Shown: positions 37,839 to 45,161 of the stretch, in pieces
How positions within the stretch are numbered: the stretch's first letter is position 1
Layout: every line of letters begins with the position of its first letter
NCBI RefSeq assembly: GCF_900099835.1
Contig: NZ_FNKP01000002.1
Coordinates: 1 to 64,000, forward strand
Direction of reading: 5' to 3'
Length of the DNA stretch: 64,000 bases
Source: Paraburkholderia fungorum
Lineage (GTDB): Bacteria > Pseudomonadota > Gammaproteobacteria > Burkholderiales > Burkholderiaceae
Position numbers and translations under genes: made by a program
Notes under the pieces: generated by a model
Told to the model about the DNA's origin: nothing
What the model saw: only the letters and a program-made list of their open reading frames with translations
The model's database searches: none

Positions 37839-39248
37839 ATGGCACAGACTCTCTACGACAAATTGTGGAACACGCACGTGATCCACACGGAAGAAGACGG
37901 TACTTCGATTCTTTATATCGACCGTCACCTGCTGCACGAAGTGACCAGCCCGCAGGCGTTCGAAGGCCTGAAGCTGGCTGAGCGTCCCGTGTGGCGCATC
38001 AGCGCGAACCTGGCCGTGTCGGACCACAACGTCCCGACTACCGACCGCACGCACGGTATCGCCGATCCTGTCTCGAAGCTGCAAGTCGACACGCTCGATT
38101 CGAACTGCGACGCCTATGGCATCACGCAGTTCAAGATGAACGATCTGCGTCAAGGCATCGTGCACATCATCGGGCCGGAGCAGGGCGCTACGCTGCCGGG
38201 CATGACGATCGTCTGCGGCGACTCGCACACGTCCACGCACGGCGCGTTCGGCGCGCTCGCGCATGGCATCGGCACGTCGGAAGTCGAGCACGTGCTGGCC
38301 ACGCAAACGCTCTTGCAGAAGAAGAGCAAGAACATGCTGGTGAAGGTCGAGGGTCCGTTGCCGCGCGGCTGTACCGCGAAGGACATCGTGCTCGCGATCA
38401 TCGGCAAGATCGGCACGGCGGGCGGTACGGGTTATGCCATCGAATTCGGCGGGTCGACCATCCGTTCGCTGTCGATGGAAGGCCGTATGACGGTCTGCAA
38501 CATGGCGATCGAAGCAGGCGCGCGCGCCGGCATGGTCGCCGTGGACGACACCACGGTCGAATACCTGAAGGGCCGTCCGTTCTCGCCGGAAGGCGTCGAG
38601 TGGGATCACGCGGTCGAATACTGGAAGCAGTTCAAGTCCGACGACGGCGCGCATTTCGATCGCGTGGTCGAACTGAATGCCGCTGAAATCGTGCCGCAAG
38701 TCACGTGGGGCACGTCGCCGGAAATGGTCACGGCTGTTGACGGCCGCGTGCCCGATCCGGAACGCGAAAAAGATCCGGTCAAGCGCGACGCGATGGAACG
38801 TGCATTGAAGTACATGGCGCTCGAACCGAATGCGCCGATCGAGTCGATCAAGCCGGACAAGATTTTCATCGGTTCGTGCACGAACGCGCGTATCGAAGAC
38901 ATTCGCGCCGCGGCTTATGTCGTGCGCAAGCTCGGCCGCCGTGTTGCACCGAATATCCGTCTGGCCATGGTGGTGCCGGGTTCGGGTCTCGTGAAGGCGC
39001 AAGCCGAACGCGAAGGTCTCGACAAGGTCTTCACCGACGCCGGTTTCGAATGGCGCGAGCCGGGTTGCTCGATGTGCCTCGCGATGAACGCCGACCGCCT
39101 CGATCCGGGCGAGCGTTGCGCGTCCACGTCGAATCGCAACTTCGAAGGCCGTCAAGGCGCAGGTGGCCGCACGCACCTCGTGAGCCCTGCAATGGCAGCG
39201 GCTGCGGCAATCGAAGGTCACTTCGTCGATATTCGGAAGCTCGGGTAA
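37839..39248 (+). CDS. leuC: 3-isopropylmalate dehydratase large subunit
   Basis: 469 aa, ATG 37839. Aconitase family: [33 protein letters not shown], the cluster Cys residues in [16 protein letters not shown] and [11 protein letters not shown]. With LeuD it isomerises 2-isopropylmalate to 3-isopropylmalate. Stop 3 nt before leuD; no entericidin-like gene is inserted between them. Confidence 0.97.
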
Positions 39249-39251
39249 ATC

Positions 39252-39905
39252 ATGGATAAATTCATCGTACACACTGGCCTCGTGGCGCCGCTCGATCGCG
39301 AGAACGTCGACACGGACGCGATCATTCCGAAGCAGTTCCTGAAGTCGATCAAACGCACTGGGTTCGGCCCGAACGCGTTCGACGAATGGCGTTATCTCGA
39401 TCACGGCGAGCCGGGTCAGGACAATTCGAAGCGCCCGCTGAATCCGGATTTCGTGCTGAATCAGCCGCGTTATCAGGGCGCTTCGGTGTTGCTGGCGCGC
39501 AAGAACTTCGGTTGTGGCAGCTCGCGTGAGCACGCGCCGTGGGCGTTGCAGCAATACGGTTTCCGCGCGCTGATCGCGCCGAGCTTCGCCGACATTTTCT
39601 ACAACAACTGCTTCAAGAACGGCGTGCTGCCGATTGTGCTGACCGAGCAACAGGTCGATCACCTGTTCAACGAAACGTACGCGTTCAACGGCTATCAGCT
39701 GATCGTCGACCTCGAAGCGCAAGTCGTGCGCACGTCCGACGGCAGCGCTGAATATCCGTTCGAAGTCGCCGGTTTCCGCAAGTACTGTCTGCTGAACGGT
39801 TTCGACGACATCGGCCTCACGCTGCGTCACGCGGACAAGATTCGTCAGTTCGAAGCAGAACGCCTGGCAAAGCAGCCGTGGTTGAATCACCGCATCGTCG
39901 GTTAA
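39252..39905 (+). CDS. leuD: 3-isopropylmalate dehydratase small subunit
   Basis: 217 aa, ATG 39252. Swivel domain with [20 protein letters not shown] and the substrate loop [15 protein letters not shown]. Partner of LeuC. Coupled to leuC by a 3-nt gap. Confidence 0.97.
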
Positions 39906-39981
39906 AGGTGTGCGGGCCTTTCGGGGCCCGTTCGCTGACTCGCGTTTGAAAAGTCCCGAAGAAAATCATCAAGGAATTCGC

Positions 39982-41049
39982 ATGAAGATCGCAGTGTTGC
40001 CGGGCGACGGCATCGGTCCCGAAATCGTCAAGGAGGCTGTCAAGGTCCTGAACGTACTCGGTGAAAAGTTCGAACTCGAGGAAGCGCCGGTTGGCGGCGC
40101 GGGCTACGAAGCAAGCGGCCACCCGCTGCCGGATGCGACTCTGGCGCTGGCGAAAGAAGCCGATGCGATCCTGTTCGGCGCAGTCGGCGACTGGAAGTAC
40201 GACAAGCTCGAACGCGCTCTGCGTCCGGAGCAGGCCATTCTGGGTCTGCGCAAGCATCTGCAACTGTTCGCGAATTTCCGTCCGGCTATCTGTTATCCGC
40301 AACTCACGGGTGCATCGTCGTTGAAGGAAGAGATCGTGTCGGGTCTCGACATCCTGATCGTGCGCGAATTGAACGGCGACATTTACTTCGGCGCGCCGCG
40401 CGGCGTGCGTGAAGCGCCGGACGGCCTGTTTGCGGGCTCGAAGGAAGGCTTCGACACGATGCGCTATTCGGAACCCGAAGTGCGCCGCATCGCGCACGTC
40501 GCGTTCCAGGCCGCGCAAAAGCGTGACAAGAAGCTGACTTCGGTCGACAAATCCAACGTGCTCGAAACGTCGCAATTCTGGCGTGACGTGATGATCGACG
40601 TATCGAAGGAATACGCGGACGTCGAGTTGTCGCACATGTACGTCGACAACGCGGCCATGCAACTCGTGAAGGCGCCCAAGGCATTCGACGTGGTGGTCAC
40701 CGGCAACATGTTCGGCGACATCCTCTCCGACGAAGCCGCGATGCTGACGGGTTCGATCGGCATGCTGCCGTCGGCCTCGCTCGACAAGAACAACAAGGGC
40801 TTGTACGAGCCGTCGCACGGTTCCGCGCCGGATATCGCCGGCAAGGGCGTGGCGAATCCGCTGGCGACCATTCTGTCGGCCGCCATGATGCTGCGTTACT
40901 CGCTGAACAAGGCAGAGCAGGCGGACCGCATCGAAAACGCGGTGAAGAAGGTGCTTGAGCAGGGCTATCGCACGGGCGACATTCTCACGCCGGGTTGCAA
41001 GCAGGTCGGCACGGTCGCGATGGGCGACGCCGTTGTGGCGGCGCTGTAA
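39982..41049 (+). CDS. leuB: 3-isopropylmalate dehydrogenase
   Basis: 355 aa from ATG 39982 ([15 protein letters not shown]), with AAGGA upstream; the frame opens at 39910 without RBS. Substrate and NAD motifs: [55 protein letters not shown] and [14 protein letters not shown]. Oxidatively decarboxylates 3-isopropylmalate to 2-oxoisocaproate. Third leu gene of the cluster. Confidence 0.97.
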
Positions 41050-41098
41050 AGCGCGTCGGAGCATCAACGGTAAGCAGGGCTGGCAACGGCCTTTAAAA

Positions 41099-41130
41099 CG
41101 TAAATTGGCCTCTTTAGAGGCCAATTTACG
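41099..41130. terminator. 14-bp perfect hairpin after leuB
   Basis: CGTAAATTGGCCTC (41099-41112) pairs with GAGGCCAATTTACG (41117-41130) around TTTA. On the plus strand no T-run follows; on the minus strand four T follow. Likely ends leuB transcription in part or protects the 3' end. Confidence 0.55.
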
Positions 41131-41194
41131 CGTAAAACAGACAACAGCGACGGGCTGAAGCGGCGAACGACGTCGCCAGATCCCGGTTTTCGTG

Positions 41195-41200
41195 TATATT
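41195..41200 (+). promoter_or_regulatory. Predicted -10 box of the asd leader
   Basis: TATATT at 41195-41200 is a good -10 hexamer; no clear -35 is 16-18 bp upstream. The expected start site is near 41207, which would make the leader ATG leaderless. Inferred. Confidence 0.4.
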
Positions 41201-41206
41201 GTGACG

Positions 41207-41326
41207 ATGGCGCAGATCTCAAAAATCTCCTCGATTTCCAAACTTCACGGCAAAACGGCCCGTGCGGTTGAACTCGCCATTACCACCATCAAAACGATTA
41301 CCCCGAAAACGATCACGAAACGCTGA
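41207..41326 (+). CDS. Thr/Ile-rich leader peptide upstream of asd (candidate attenuator)
   Basis: A 39-codon frame, ATG 41207 to TGA 41324-41326, ends 84 bp before asd. Its last 17 codons read AITTIKTITPKTITKR with 7 Thr and 5 Ile, like the Thr/Ile-rich regulatory run of the enterobacterial thrL leader peptide. Asd makes the aspartate semialdehyde from which Thr and then Ile are built, so the codon bias fits the product. Competing hairpins follow directly. No classical RBS is seen; translation may be leaderless from the TATATT promoter, or start at GTG 41201 in the same frame. Confidence 0.5.
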   Translation: MAQISKISSISKLHGKTARAVELAITTIKTITPKTITKR

Positions 41327-41337
41327 TCGTCCGTCGT

Positions 41338-41389
41338 GCCCGCTCATCTTCCCCGCGCGGTCACTGCGGGCAAAGATGCGGGGAAGTTT
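41338..41389 (+). promoter_or_regulatory. Mutually exclusive hairpins of the asd leader
   Basis: Structure A pairs CTTCCCCGC (41348-41356) with GCGGGGAAG (41378-41386), then TTT. Structure B pairs GCCCGC (41338-41343) with GCGGGC (41366-41371). They interleave, so only one can form, as in a terminator/antiterminator switch. The T-tract is short, so control of translation (GGAAG is inside helix A) is an alternative. Confidence 0.45.
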
Positions 41390-41410
41390 CCATTCGAAGG
41401 GTATGAAGTC

Positions 41411-42532
41411 ATGAACGTAGGTCTCGTAGGTTGGCGCGGCATGGTCGGCAGCGTCCTGATGCAACGCATGCAGCAGGAAGGCGATTTCGACTTGATCGAA
41501 CCGGTGTTTTTCAGCACCAGCAACGCGGGCGGCAACGCGCCGTCGTTCGCCAAAAACGAGACCAAGCTCAAAGATGCGACAAGCATCGACGACCTGAAGA
41601 AGTGCGACGCGATCATCTCGTGCCAGGGTGGTGACTACACGAACGACGTGTTCCCGAAGCTGCGCGCAGCGGGCTGGAACGGTTACTGGATCGACGCGGC
41701 TTCGTCGCTGCGCATGAAGGACGACGCGGTCATCATTCTCGATCCGGTCAACCTCGACGTGATCAAGAATGCGCTGGTCAAGGGCCAGAAGAATTTCATC
41801 GGCGGCAATTGCACGGTCAGCCTGATGCTGATGGCGCTCGGCGGCTTGTTCCGCGAAGGCCTCGTCGACTGGATCACGGCTATGACGTATCAGGCCGCTT
41901 CGGGCGCGGGCGCGCAGAACATGCGCGAACTGCTGCAACAGATGGGCACGCTGTACGGTGCAGCCAAGGAAGACCTGGCTGATCCGTCGTCGGCGATTCT
42001 CGATATCGACCGTCGCGTGCTGGCTGCAATGAACAGCGACCGCATGCCGACCGACAACTTCGGCGTGCCGCTCGCCGGCTCGCTGATTCCGTGGATCGAC
42101 AAGGATCTCGGCAACGGCATGTCGAAGGAAGAGTGGAAGGGCGGCGCTGAAACCAACAAGATTCTCGGTAAGCCAGCCATGGGCACGCCGGGCTCGATCC
42201 CCGTCGACGGCCTGTGCGTGCGGATCGGCGCAATGCGCTGCCACTCGCAGGCACTGACCATCAAGCTGAACAAGGACGTGCCGCTGGACGAAGTGAACAG
42301 CATCCTCGCGTCGGGCAACGACTGGGTCAAGGTCGTGCCGAACGAGCGCGAAGCCACCGTGCGCGATCTGTCCCCGGCTGTGGTCACGGGCACGCTGACG
42401 GTGCCGGTCGGCCGCGTGCGTAAGCTCGCGATGGGCGGTGAATATCTGTCGGCATTCACGGTCGGCGATCAGCTGCTGTGGGGCGCTGCGGAACCGCTGC
42501 GTCGCATGCTTCGCATTGTGCTCGACAAGTAA
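41411..42532 (+). CDS. asd: Aspartate-semialdehyde dehydrogenase
   Basis: 373 aa from ATG 41411 ([20 protein letters not shown]), with GAAGG as RBS; the frame opens at 41336 inside the leader hairpins. NADP-binding GWRGMVGS at the start, the catalytic Cys in [13 protein letters not shown], and [16 protein letters not shown] with the active-site His. Product feeds Lys/DAP, Met, Thr and Ile synthesis. A Thr/Ile-rich leader frame lies upstream; a strong terminator follows. Confidence 0.97.
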
Positions 42533-42570
42533 AGTAAACTACGCGCTCACGACGCGTAGAAAACTCAAGA

Positions 42571-42597
42571 AGCGTCGCGCTTGCGCGGCGCTTTTTT
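42571..42597 (+). terminator. Intrinsic terminator after asd
   Basis: AGCG-t-CGCG / CGCG-g-CGCT stem with a short loop around 42580, running directly into TTTTTT (42592-42597). A clear intrinsic terminator separating asd from the fimV-like gene. Confidence 0.85.
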
Positions 42598-42671
42598 CAT
42601 TGTGTGCTCCGAAAATCTTGTCTCTTTCCAATCGCAAAAAAGGGCTGCGCGCTGACGCGGCAGGAGTCCCG

Positions 42672-45161
42672 ATGACCCTTCGACTCTCGTCCCTTCGGGC
42701 CATGTTCATTCATCGACGTAAGGGCCGTCTGGCGGCTGCGGCTGCACTGGCTTTGGCGCTAACCGGCGCGGGGCTGGGCAACGCGCTTGCCGCGCCGGAT
42801 TCGACCGCGAGCGCGCCCGATGCCGCTTCGGTGTCGTATGCGGCGGGCAGTCAATACACGGTGAAGCCCGGACAGTCGCTGAATGACGTGGCGATCGCCG
42901 TCACGCAGTCACACGACAAGGCGACGCTCGCGCGGGCGTCGCACGCATTGTTCGACGCGAACCCGAATGCGTTTATGAGCCACGATCCGAGCCGGATGCG
43001 AGTCGGGGCGGCGTTGACGGTGCCGGCGCTGGATGCGACGGGTGCGTTGGCGGCTTCGGCTTCGTCGGCGGCCTCGGCTTCTGGGGCGGCTACGGCGACG
43101 ACTGGCGCGACGCAGGCCAATGCGGCGGCGAGCAGCGCGGCAAGCGCTGTAACGCCCGCAACGGTTTCAGGGACGGCAAGCGCGACCACTGAGGCAAGCT
43201 CCCCGGCGCAGGCGGGTGCAGCTGCGAGCGGTGCGATTTCGTCGGCGCCGGCAGCAGGGTCGCAGCCGGCCGCTGTGTCTGCTAGCGACACACGCGCGTG
43301 GTCCGGGTCGGTTCAACCGTCAGCGAGCGAACCCGTTGCCGCGACACAGCCGCCGGCTACTGCTGCCGCGCCGGTGTCGGCTGCTCCACTGCCGGCATCG
43401 CAGCCGAAAGTCTCCAGTTTGCAGCAGTTGCTCGCGCTGAAAAACCGGGTGCTCATGGAGTTGCAGAAGCACGGCATTGGCGGCGCTCCGGCGGCGGGAG
43501 GGGCGGTGGCGACTAGCGGCGTGGCGTCGGCGGCTGGCGCTTCCGCGGCAACCCCGGTTGTGCCTGGTCATGGGGCGGCGACGGCTCCCACGTCGAATAT
43601 TGGCGGGATGTCGCAACAGAATCTGAGCATCGCGGCAGCGATCGGCGCTGCGCTGGTCGTGCTGCTGACGGCATTGCGTATCCGTCGGCGTAAGCGCGAG
43701 AACGTCGCGGCGGCGCAAGCGGCGGCGGCAGATCGCGAGGTGGCGGCGCGGGAGGGCGAATCGCCGGCCATCGTTGCGACTCCCGACGAGACGTCGGTGT
43801 CCGACGCATCTGACGACAAGGACGCGGCCGTCATCTCGGCAGCAGCGCTGGCTGCCGCTGAACGCGAGGCGGCTGAGGGCGAGGCTGCGCAACGGGAAAC
43901 AGCGGAGCGTGAGGCTGCGGAGCGCGAGGCGGAAGCCCGTCACGCGGCCTCGCAGGCGGCGGCCGAGCGCGCGGCAACAGAACAAGCCGCAGCAGAACAG
44001 GCCGCAGCCGAGCGTGCCACGGCAGAACGCGTGGCGGCAGAGCAAGCCGCAGCCGATCACGCACGCGCTCAGCAAGCAGAACACGAAGCAAAACAAGTAG
44101 CAGAGCACGAAGCCACAAATCACCCGTCACAAGCTGATGCGCTCTCGCAAGAGGCCAACCTGGCCGCGTCCAGCAATGTCTGGGAGGAGTCGCGTGCTAC
44201 GACGCCCGCATCGGCCGAACCGGTTTCCGGGCTAAACCCGACTACCCCGCCGCCGGTCGACCTCGATTTCAGCCCGGAACCTCTACCTGAGCATCACCAC
44301 GACCATATCGATGGGGCGACCACCGCAGCGAGCCTCGCTGCCGCGGCAGAACTCGGCGCCGAAGCTTTGCCGCTGACCGCACTCGAGCCAATCGATGAAC
44401 CCATCCAGCAAGAGGAACTCGCTCGCCGCTTGCAATGGAATGACGAGCCGGCGCCGGGGGCGTCGGCGGAACAACAAGAACTATCGGCAGAGCCGCAAAA
44501 CAATCAGAACGTACCACCACCTGTGATCGATTTTCCGCAACAACACGCCGAGCCGCATGCAATCGTGCCGCCCGGTCAGCCGTTCAATGACGCAAATCAC
44601 GCCGACGCCGACGAAGCGAGCGATGTGCCGGTGCCTTCGGTTCCCACCATGTCGATACCGCCGGTGCCGACCGAATTCCCGGCCGATGCCATTGATGCCT
44701 TCAGCAGCCTCGACATGCCGCTGCCGCCGCGTATCGAATCGACGGCGGACGACATCCGCGCACCCGTCTCGCTGACGACCCAGCCGGTTGTGTCGCCGGA
44801 AACGACCGCCCAACAGGCATTCGCGCCGCGCGAGGACGACGCCCCCCATATCGCCGATGAAATCGCCGCCGGCACCGCAGGCCCGGCTGCTGTCGCGGGC
44901 CTCGGTGCAGCCGGTTTCGGCGCGCTGAAGCTCGACTTCGATCTGGAGTTGCCGCCGAGCCCGGCGCAGCCCTGGCCGGCGTTCACCCCGACCGATCTGA
45001 TCCGTATCGCCCGCAACAAGCTCGATCTGGCCTCCGAGTACATCGAACTCGGCGACCTGTCCGGCGCGCGCACGCTTATCAACGAAGTGATCGAGGCGAA
45101 CGATCCGGCCACCCGCACCGAGGCTCGCGCGTTGCTCTCGACTCTCGCCCCGTTGTCGTGA
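42672..45161 (+). CDS. fimV: FimV/HubP-like polar protein
   Basis: 829 aa from ATG 42672 with CAGGAG upstream. Signal peptide ([21 protein letters not shown]), then a LysM-type peptidoglycan-binding module ([17 protein letters not shown] to [10 protein letters not shown], about 55-115), a long Ala/Ser/Thr-rich linker, one TM ([22 protein letters not shown], about 318-338), a coiled coil of Ala/Glu repeats (about 390-490), an acidic Pro-rich region and the C-terminal FimV tetratricopeptide motif ([24 protein letters not shown]). FimV/HubP proteins organise the cell pole for type IV pili and chemotaxis. Overlaps truA by 4 nt. Confidence 0.88.

Follow-up and report, generated by a model that had tools for sequence, protein, structure and literature searches.

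Organization of the asd locus

The window analyzed here is a 64,000-nucleotide stretch of Paraburkholderia fungorum DNA (contig NZ_FNKP01000002.1, positions 1 to 64,000), part of a genome of 8.58 Mb in four contigs, and the features of interest lie around asd, which encodes aspartate-semialdehyde dehydrogenase (Table 1). The gene was named in a first-pass annotation of the sequence, and the name agrees with the families searched; the closest named Asd proteins are those of Paraburkholderia, at 98% identity. Asd supplies lysine, diaminopimelate, methionine, threonine and isoleucine. A hairpin with T6 lies directly after the gene, and asd is therefore probably transcribed alone. Another long, AT-flanked hairpin (GTAAATTGGCCTC TTTA GAGGCCAATTTAC) occupies positions 41100-41130 in the interval between leuB and the asd promoter, and is probably the end of the leu transcript.

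Table 1. Features of the asd locus, numbered from the first letter of the window
Feature	Coordinates	Strand	Basis or remark
Promoter-like site, TCGCCA - 16 nt - TATATT	41173..41200	+	sole promoter-like match in 40900-42700
Leader frame, 39 codons + TGA, MAQISKISSISKLHGKTARAVELAITTIKTITPKTITKR; leaderless, transcript start predicted at or near the ATG	41207..41326	+
Thr/Ile run, last 17 codons of the leader frame, presumed control codons	41273..41323	+	6 Thr, 4 Ile
P0, hairpin over the last codons and stop, 41310-41315 with 41324-41329	41310..41329	+
S1, 41336-41343 with 41357-41364, one mismatch (41339/41361)	41336..41364	+
S2, 41348-41356 with 41378-41386	41348..41386	+	interleaves with S1; second helix of the first-pass annotation
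Shine-Dalgarno-like AAGGG of asd	41397..41401	+	sequence
asd, aspartate-semialdehyde dehydrogenase, 373 codons	41411..42532	+	open reading frame; relatives; name from the first-pass annotation
Terminator-like hairpin with T6, 3' of asd	42577..42597	+	sequence

The first codons of asd (GTAGGTCT, 41417-41452) are nearly invariant in nucleotide sequence. They and their neighbours are also common in loci that have no leader frame, and an RNA role for them was rejected on this ground. Among the early codons, CTC and AGC are found mostly in leader-bearing loci, and CTG and TCG in many others.

A leader frame ending in threonine and isoleucine codons

As the first-pass annotation had proposed, an ATG frame of 39 codons (41207-41326) closes with TGA at 41324-41326 and leaves 84 nt to the asd ATG at 41411. 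Its last 17 codons (LAITTIKTITPKTITKR), credited there with seven Thr and five Ile, contain six Thr and four Ile by our count, and the whole frame has seven of each. The frame has the make-up of an attenuator leader, being short, placed upstream of a biosynthetic gene and enriched in end-product codons (10 of 17 are Thr or Ile); with both strands of the window taken together, there are 1506 frame tails of 17 or more open codons, and the next best of them has seven. A chance origin of the run or of the whole element is rejected on these tail counts, the retention of the codons in relatives, and the matches to the RNA across the family.

Conservation in relatives had been named as the test of the proposal, and similar frames with a Thr/Ile run are present in 158 of 210 asd upstream regions, from genomes overlapping in species such that the loci are not independent. 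A frame was counted if it has at least six Thr or Ile in its last 16 codons and a stop approximately 72-110 nt before asd; for a later batch the limits were at least five Thr or Ile and a stop 65-115 nt before asd. Loci L047-L050, L077 and L079 were left out of the count by the first criterion; the last five show no such frame, and L047, which starts inside asd and cannot be judged, is included in the 52 loci without one. Two loci below the threshold (L181 and L183) were judged only by eye and in alignment A2, described with the helices. The 80 named loci include 48 with a Thr/Ile-rich frame shortly before asd (L001-L046, L064 and L067), assigned by their record titles to Paraburkholderia, Burkholderia, Caballeronia and Trinickia; the rest are 29 loci without the frame, together with L069, L051 and the unjudgeable L047.

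The frames of the relatives are 37-56 codons long, with a variable middle and a Thr/Ile-rich end that is kept, and the run is still present where Asd is only ~70% identical. Comparison of nearest neighbours shows that Thr or Ile positions remain Thr or Ile in 868 of 929 cases within the last 17 codons versus 477 of 580 earlier in the frame. In the same comparison, 45 of the 83 pairwise gaps inside the frame have lengths divisible by three and 38 do not; after the stop, 6 of 40 gaps do. Substitutions in the leader number 283, 263 and 334 at codon positions 1, 2 and 3 respectively, and its codon differences are non-synonymous in 502 cases versus synonymous in 218; both the positional pattern and the non-synonymous excess count against a protein role for the leader. 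These comparisons suggest that the codon run is under stronger selection than the peptide. Frameshifting or read-through from the leader into asd was rejected because the stop-to-asd spacing in the relatives does not keep to a single reading frame.

Where the leader frame is named at all among the 40 relatives listed, it is as a hypothetical protein. Parvibium lacunae (L069) has a Thr/Ile-rich frame before asd followed by RNA unlike the Burkholderiaceae element, and may represent the same control in an independent or strongly diverged form. Three loci of reduced or small genomes retain asd with a decayed leader: a Vallotia endosymbiont (L051) has a leader remnant without an ATG, L182 also lacks the ATG, and L181 has no Thr/Ile-rich open frame. 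It looks as if control is being lost in these three.

Promoter spacing and a predicted leaderless start

Shuffled sequences predict an average of 0.4 promoter-like matches in 40900-42700, the interval in which the site upstream of the leader is the sole one. The first-pass annotation listed the lack of a ribosome binding site and a possible leaderless start as weak points, and both observations hold in the window and generalize to the relatives. In 153 of the 158 loci, a -10-like TAnnnT hexamer has its end 6-9 nt upstream of the leader ATG (6, 7, 8 and 9 nt in 98, 21, 29 and 5 loci respectively, with spacings of 4-10 nt allowed and ties broken towards 6-7), most often as TATATT (74 loci) or TAGACT (69 loci), and none of these 153 loci has a Shine-Dalgarno-like 4-mer before the ATG. 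The absence of a ribosome site agrees with a leaderless start: by its sequence the leader has what is expected of a leaderless mRNA, with a -10 at start distance from the ATG and no Shine-Dalgarno sequence, and we predict that its transcript begins at or near the ATG. As reported in part of one study of Burkholderia cenocepacia, the mapped starts of 114 genes, including 24 for tRNAs, coincide with the annotated start codon or lie no more than 10 nt from it (PMC4603805), showing that leaderless messages occur in the family; the main text of that report does not mention asd.

Conserved and interleaved RNA helices

The end of the leader frame and the RNA behind it can form three conserved helices, P0, S1 and S2. 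For P0, the mean longest helix over 54 distinct stop regions is 6.70, compared to 6.29 (sd 0.06) when the partners are dealt anew and 4.09 (sd 0.13) when the letters are shuffled.

Two interleaving hairpins had been proposed downstream of the frame, and they fare differently in the relatives. The second (41348-41356 with 41378-41386, CTTCCCCGC/GCGGGGAAG) is S2, and it stands: all nine pairs are present in 61 of 67 distinct cores, and the single, very divergent L121 (TATTCTAAG/CTTAGAATA) also has nine pairs, both partners being altered in seven of them relative to the usual sequence. In L181 and L183, S2 could not be made out by eye. These S2 counts were made by script since alignment A2, consisting of 43 rows from distinct cores plus L121, L181 and L183, misaligns the S2 3' strand; the structure counts throughout leave out L051 and L182, which have no ATG, and L069, with its different RNA.

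The first proposed helix (41338-41343 with 41366-41371) is complementary in the window and only partly kept in relatives, with 78.2% of cells paired among 43 distinct relatives. Its innermost pair (41343-41366) is broken in 35 of the 43 and its outermost pair (41338-41371) in 15, with the central pairs mostly kept; among 500 shuffles, 146 reach its two doubly changed pairs, 19 its doubly changed cells, and 15 its covariation score. S1 is the better pairing, with 94.5% of cells paired (43 distinct rows) and an extra pair (41335/41365) in most relatives, and the first helix is set behind it as the conserved partner, though its central pairs persist. Four pairs and 10 cells of S1 are changed on both sides, values reached by 5 and 0 of 500 shuffles respectively, and its count of pair types is reached by 235 of 500; 12 of the 43 rows lack its first pair. 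Sliding the S1 partner by +3 gives 80.4% paired cells, a covariation score of 0.185 versus 0.137, and fewer double changes. S1 variants include CTGC/GCAG in the g3 loci and TATGTCCAC/GTGGACATA in L181, and only five of eight pairs form in L121. As to the compensatory changes by which the first-pass annotation proposed to judge both helices, they are thus present in S1, in P0 and, through L121 alone, in S2, and do not support the originally proposed first helix as the conserved partner.

In 154 of 154 loci, the start of S1 lies 7-11 nt downstream of the leader stop. S1 interleaves with S2, both helices are conserved, and they may either exclude each other or form together. The S1/S2 linkers are 3-6 nt, 0 nt (in 64 of 67) and 11-24 nt among the 67 distinct cores, which by sequence is the layout of an H-type pseudoknot. 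Folding energies for 13 sequences are -6.3 to -9.9 kcal/mol for S1 versus -12.5 to -16.1 kcal/mol for S2. The mean probability of S1 in nested folding, a method that cannot judge pseudoknots, is 0.01, and a third nested fold, in which the S1 5' strand pairs with the S2 3' strand, is the best in 10 of the 13 cores folded alone. The multiple pairing options of these strands in the folding models may explain their rigid primary sequence.

Distribution of the element

With an E limit of 0.01, a covariance model of the RNA following the frame, built from 36 relatives, has matches in 274 of the 398 genomes of the family, representing 10 of 25 genera, one of which rests on a single match (E 0.003). 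There is a single match in 273 of the 274 genomes, and the exception (G158) also has two asd copies. The element adjoins asd in the loci read, and the match runs into the start of asd where coordinates were compared (e.g. G171:C1:982274-982384, with asd from 982382). An order-level search yields matches in 8 of 399 genomes, six of which are in the family. Occurrence outside of the family was rejected, as the two matches concerned (L217 and L218; E 3e-4 and 0.009) fall inside long open frames, with asd absent from the 3 kb retrieved for each.

The output step

The short T-tract that the first-pass annotation conceded is as described in the window, with five T in the 9 nt after S2 and a longest run of three. 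Five T are also found there in other loci (29 of 155, the window's type included), and the tract is not conserved: the longest T-run in these 9 nt is 1, 2 and 3 in 72, 42 and 41 of 155 loci respectively, no run exceeds three in any of the 155, and the g3 and g24 loci, possibly Cupriavidus-like and Ralstonia-like respectively, have lost the tract. A terminator of the E. coli type is therefore unlikely across the group, and one of the thr operon type is not supported; the hairpin after asd, with its T6, provides the contrast. Rho sites are C-rich, and the 28 nt after the leader stop (41327-41354) contain 14 C, 8 T, 5 G and 1 A, a C-rich and A-poor composition that makes Rho the first suspect. 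The likeliest output is a premature stop of transcription that lacks a canonical U-tract, with Rho suspected by composition alone.

A proposed model for control of asd by threonine and isoleucine

The conserved leader element before asd is real and is probably a switch that senses Thr and Ile. We propose that it is a cis-acting attenuator in which ribosomes stall at Thr and Ile codons, tying asd to the charging of the corresponding tRNAs and acting through a non-classical output, and assign this reading a probability of about 0.5. From the frame, its codon run, the promoter spacing and the helices P0, S1 and S2 with their conservation, we infer the following course, from transcript start through stalling and the on-state to output. 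Transcription would begin with the A of the leader ATG or a nucleotide next to it, and ribosomes would load on the leaderless message. With Thr and Ile plentiful, a ribosome would reach the stop, open P0, and cover the S1 5' strand, which lies 8 nt past the stop; S2 would then form freely once its 3' strand emerges, and asd expression would be low. With Thr or Ile short, the ribosome would stall upstream in the codon run and leave S1 free to form before S2 is complete, either excluding S2 or locking the pseudoknot, and asd would be expressed. Given the size of a ribosome footprint and the 7-11 nt by which S1 follows the stop, the S1 5' strand should be covered when a ribosome sits at the stop codon, but not when it is stalled in the Thr/Ile run.

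A broader form of this model is put forward tentatively: a lineage-wide Thr/Ile sensor in which ribosomes on a leaderless frame toggle an H-type pseudoknot and set asd expression through Rho or translation, with no intrinsic terminator, such that the shared step rather than the Thr branch is controlled. The surroundings of hom, lysC and two ilvA-like genes in this genome showed no comparable Thr/Ile codon run, upstream coverage being short for the ilvA-like genes. If the model is true, two end products would control the Asd step shared with others, an unusual wiring, and leader-peptide control of the aspartate pathway would be extended to a large bacterial family. The element would also be a compact conserved test case of a leaderless frame and a possible pseudoknot regulating without a U-tract terminator.

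The main rival retains the sensing and places the output in translation: ribosome access to asd would be gated by the pseudoknot or by S2, whose end lies 24 nt upstream of the asd ATG, a mechanism that has also been proposed for the actinobacterial LEU element. The lack of a conserved U-tract after S2 and the H-type layout of S1 and S2 agree with this, as does the precedent of the LEU element, in which a leader and a pseudoknot are reported together with a stem covering the Shine-Dalgarno box (PMC1262725). Against it, the openness of the asd start in nested folding does not differ between a free S1 strand (0.54) and a masked one (0.53; n=107), and masking of the start by nested structure was accordingly rejected, although such folding is blind to pseudoknots. 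Pairing of the asd Shine-Dalgarno sequence with the codon run exceeds the controls by little if at all, at 11.85 versus 11.43 (sd 0.21) for shuffled letters and 11.28 (sd 0.13) for partners dealt anew (121 distinct rows). We consider translational output possible but rather unlikely.

A classical attenuator of the enterobacterial thr type, with S2 as the intrinsic terminator and either S1 or the originally proposed first helix as the antiterminator, is improbable. Most known proteobacterial amino-acid leaders are classical attenuators, S2 is strong and interleaved with S1, and the window is among the loci with five T after S2, but T-runs no longer than three throughout the 155 loci and the loss of the tract in g3 and g24 weigh against it.

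The remaining two alternatives are both very improbable. Leaderless leader frames with trans roles are on record in passages of PMC7298713, and the leader peptide or a short leader RNA could likewise act in trans in the manner of peTrpL/rnTrpL of Sinorhizobium meliloti, but the asd leader peptide drifts outside of the Thr/Ile run and the element adjoins asd in the loci examined. Similarly, the very high primary sequence conservation of the S1/S2 core and the lack of a match to the element among 4227 Rfam families (E up to 1) could suggest a ligand- or protein-binding RNA, such as a riboswitch-like pseudoknot with the frame as a passenger, but the Thr/Ile run and the start spacing are kept, and in Parvibium lacunae (L069) the Thr/Ile frame upstream of asd is followed by a different RNA.

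Relationship to known leaders

Comparison of positions 38000-45000 with the 4227 Rfam families at E up to 1 gave three weak matches, none of which is inside 41150-41411. The asd RNA motif of lactic acid bacteria (RF01732) is also an RNA element located before asd, and neither it nor any other Rfam family matches the present element. The cis-acting Thr/Ile attenuator proposed here resembles the enterobacterial thr leader (RF00506) in placing Thr and Ile codons in a leader frame upstream of aspartate-pathway genes; it differs in the gene controlled, the lack of a conserved U-tract, the predicted leaderless start, and the absence of a match over the RF00506 cut-off. Thr_leader matches exceed the cut-off in none of 21 genomes searched, with weaker matches in nine of the 21 and none in the genome carrying the window; as a control, the model matched in 5 of 14 named genomes and exceeded the cut-off in one.

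The closest architecture found in print is the LEU element upstream of leuA in Actinobacteria, which in the passages of PMC1262725 combines a leader of end-product codons with a pseudoknot-capable RNA, no terminator being described there. It differs from the asd element in its Leu rather than Thr/Ile codons, its gene and its host group (PMC1262725). The topology of the LEU type fits the asd element, in which the interleaving of S1 and S2 is read from sequence. The trpL transcript of Sinorhizobium meliloti likewise begins with the leader ATG, and differs in its Trp codons, its transcription terminator and the trans-acting products described for it (passages of PMC7298713). The Corynebacterium ilvB-II motif is similar in that a conserved frame of end-product codons was found via conserved RNA before a biosynthetic gene, and differs in having branched-chain codons, ilvB as its gene, and a terminator stem followed by uridines (passages of PMC10272879).

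No description of an asd leader was found in a literature search that covered mainly non-subscription papers and was judged by titles and the openings of abstracts, and asd is not mentioned in the relevant passages of PMC2965389, PMC4833913, PMC10272879, PMC5688073 and PMC8632094. In Burkholderia thailandensis, positions -79 to -54 of the asd mRNA are listed in part of PMC4035088 as a computed sRNA target.
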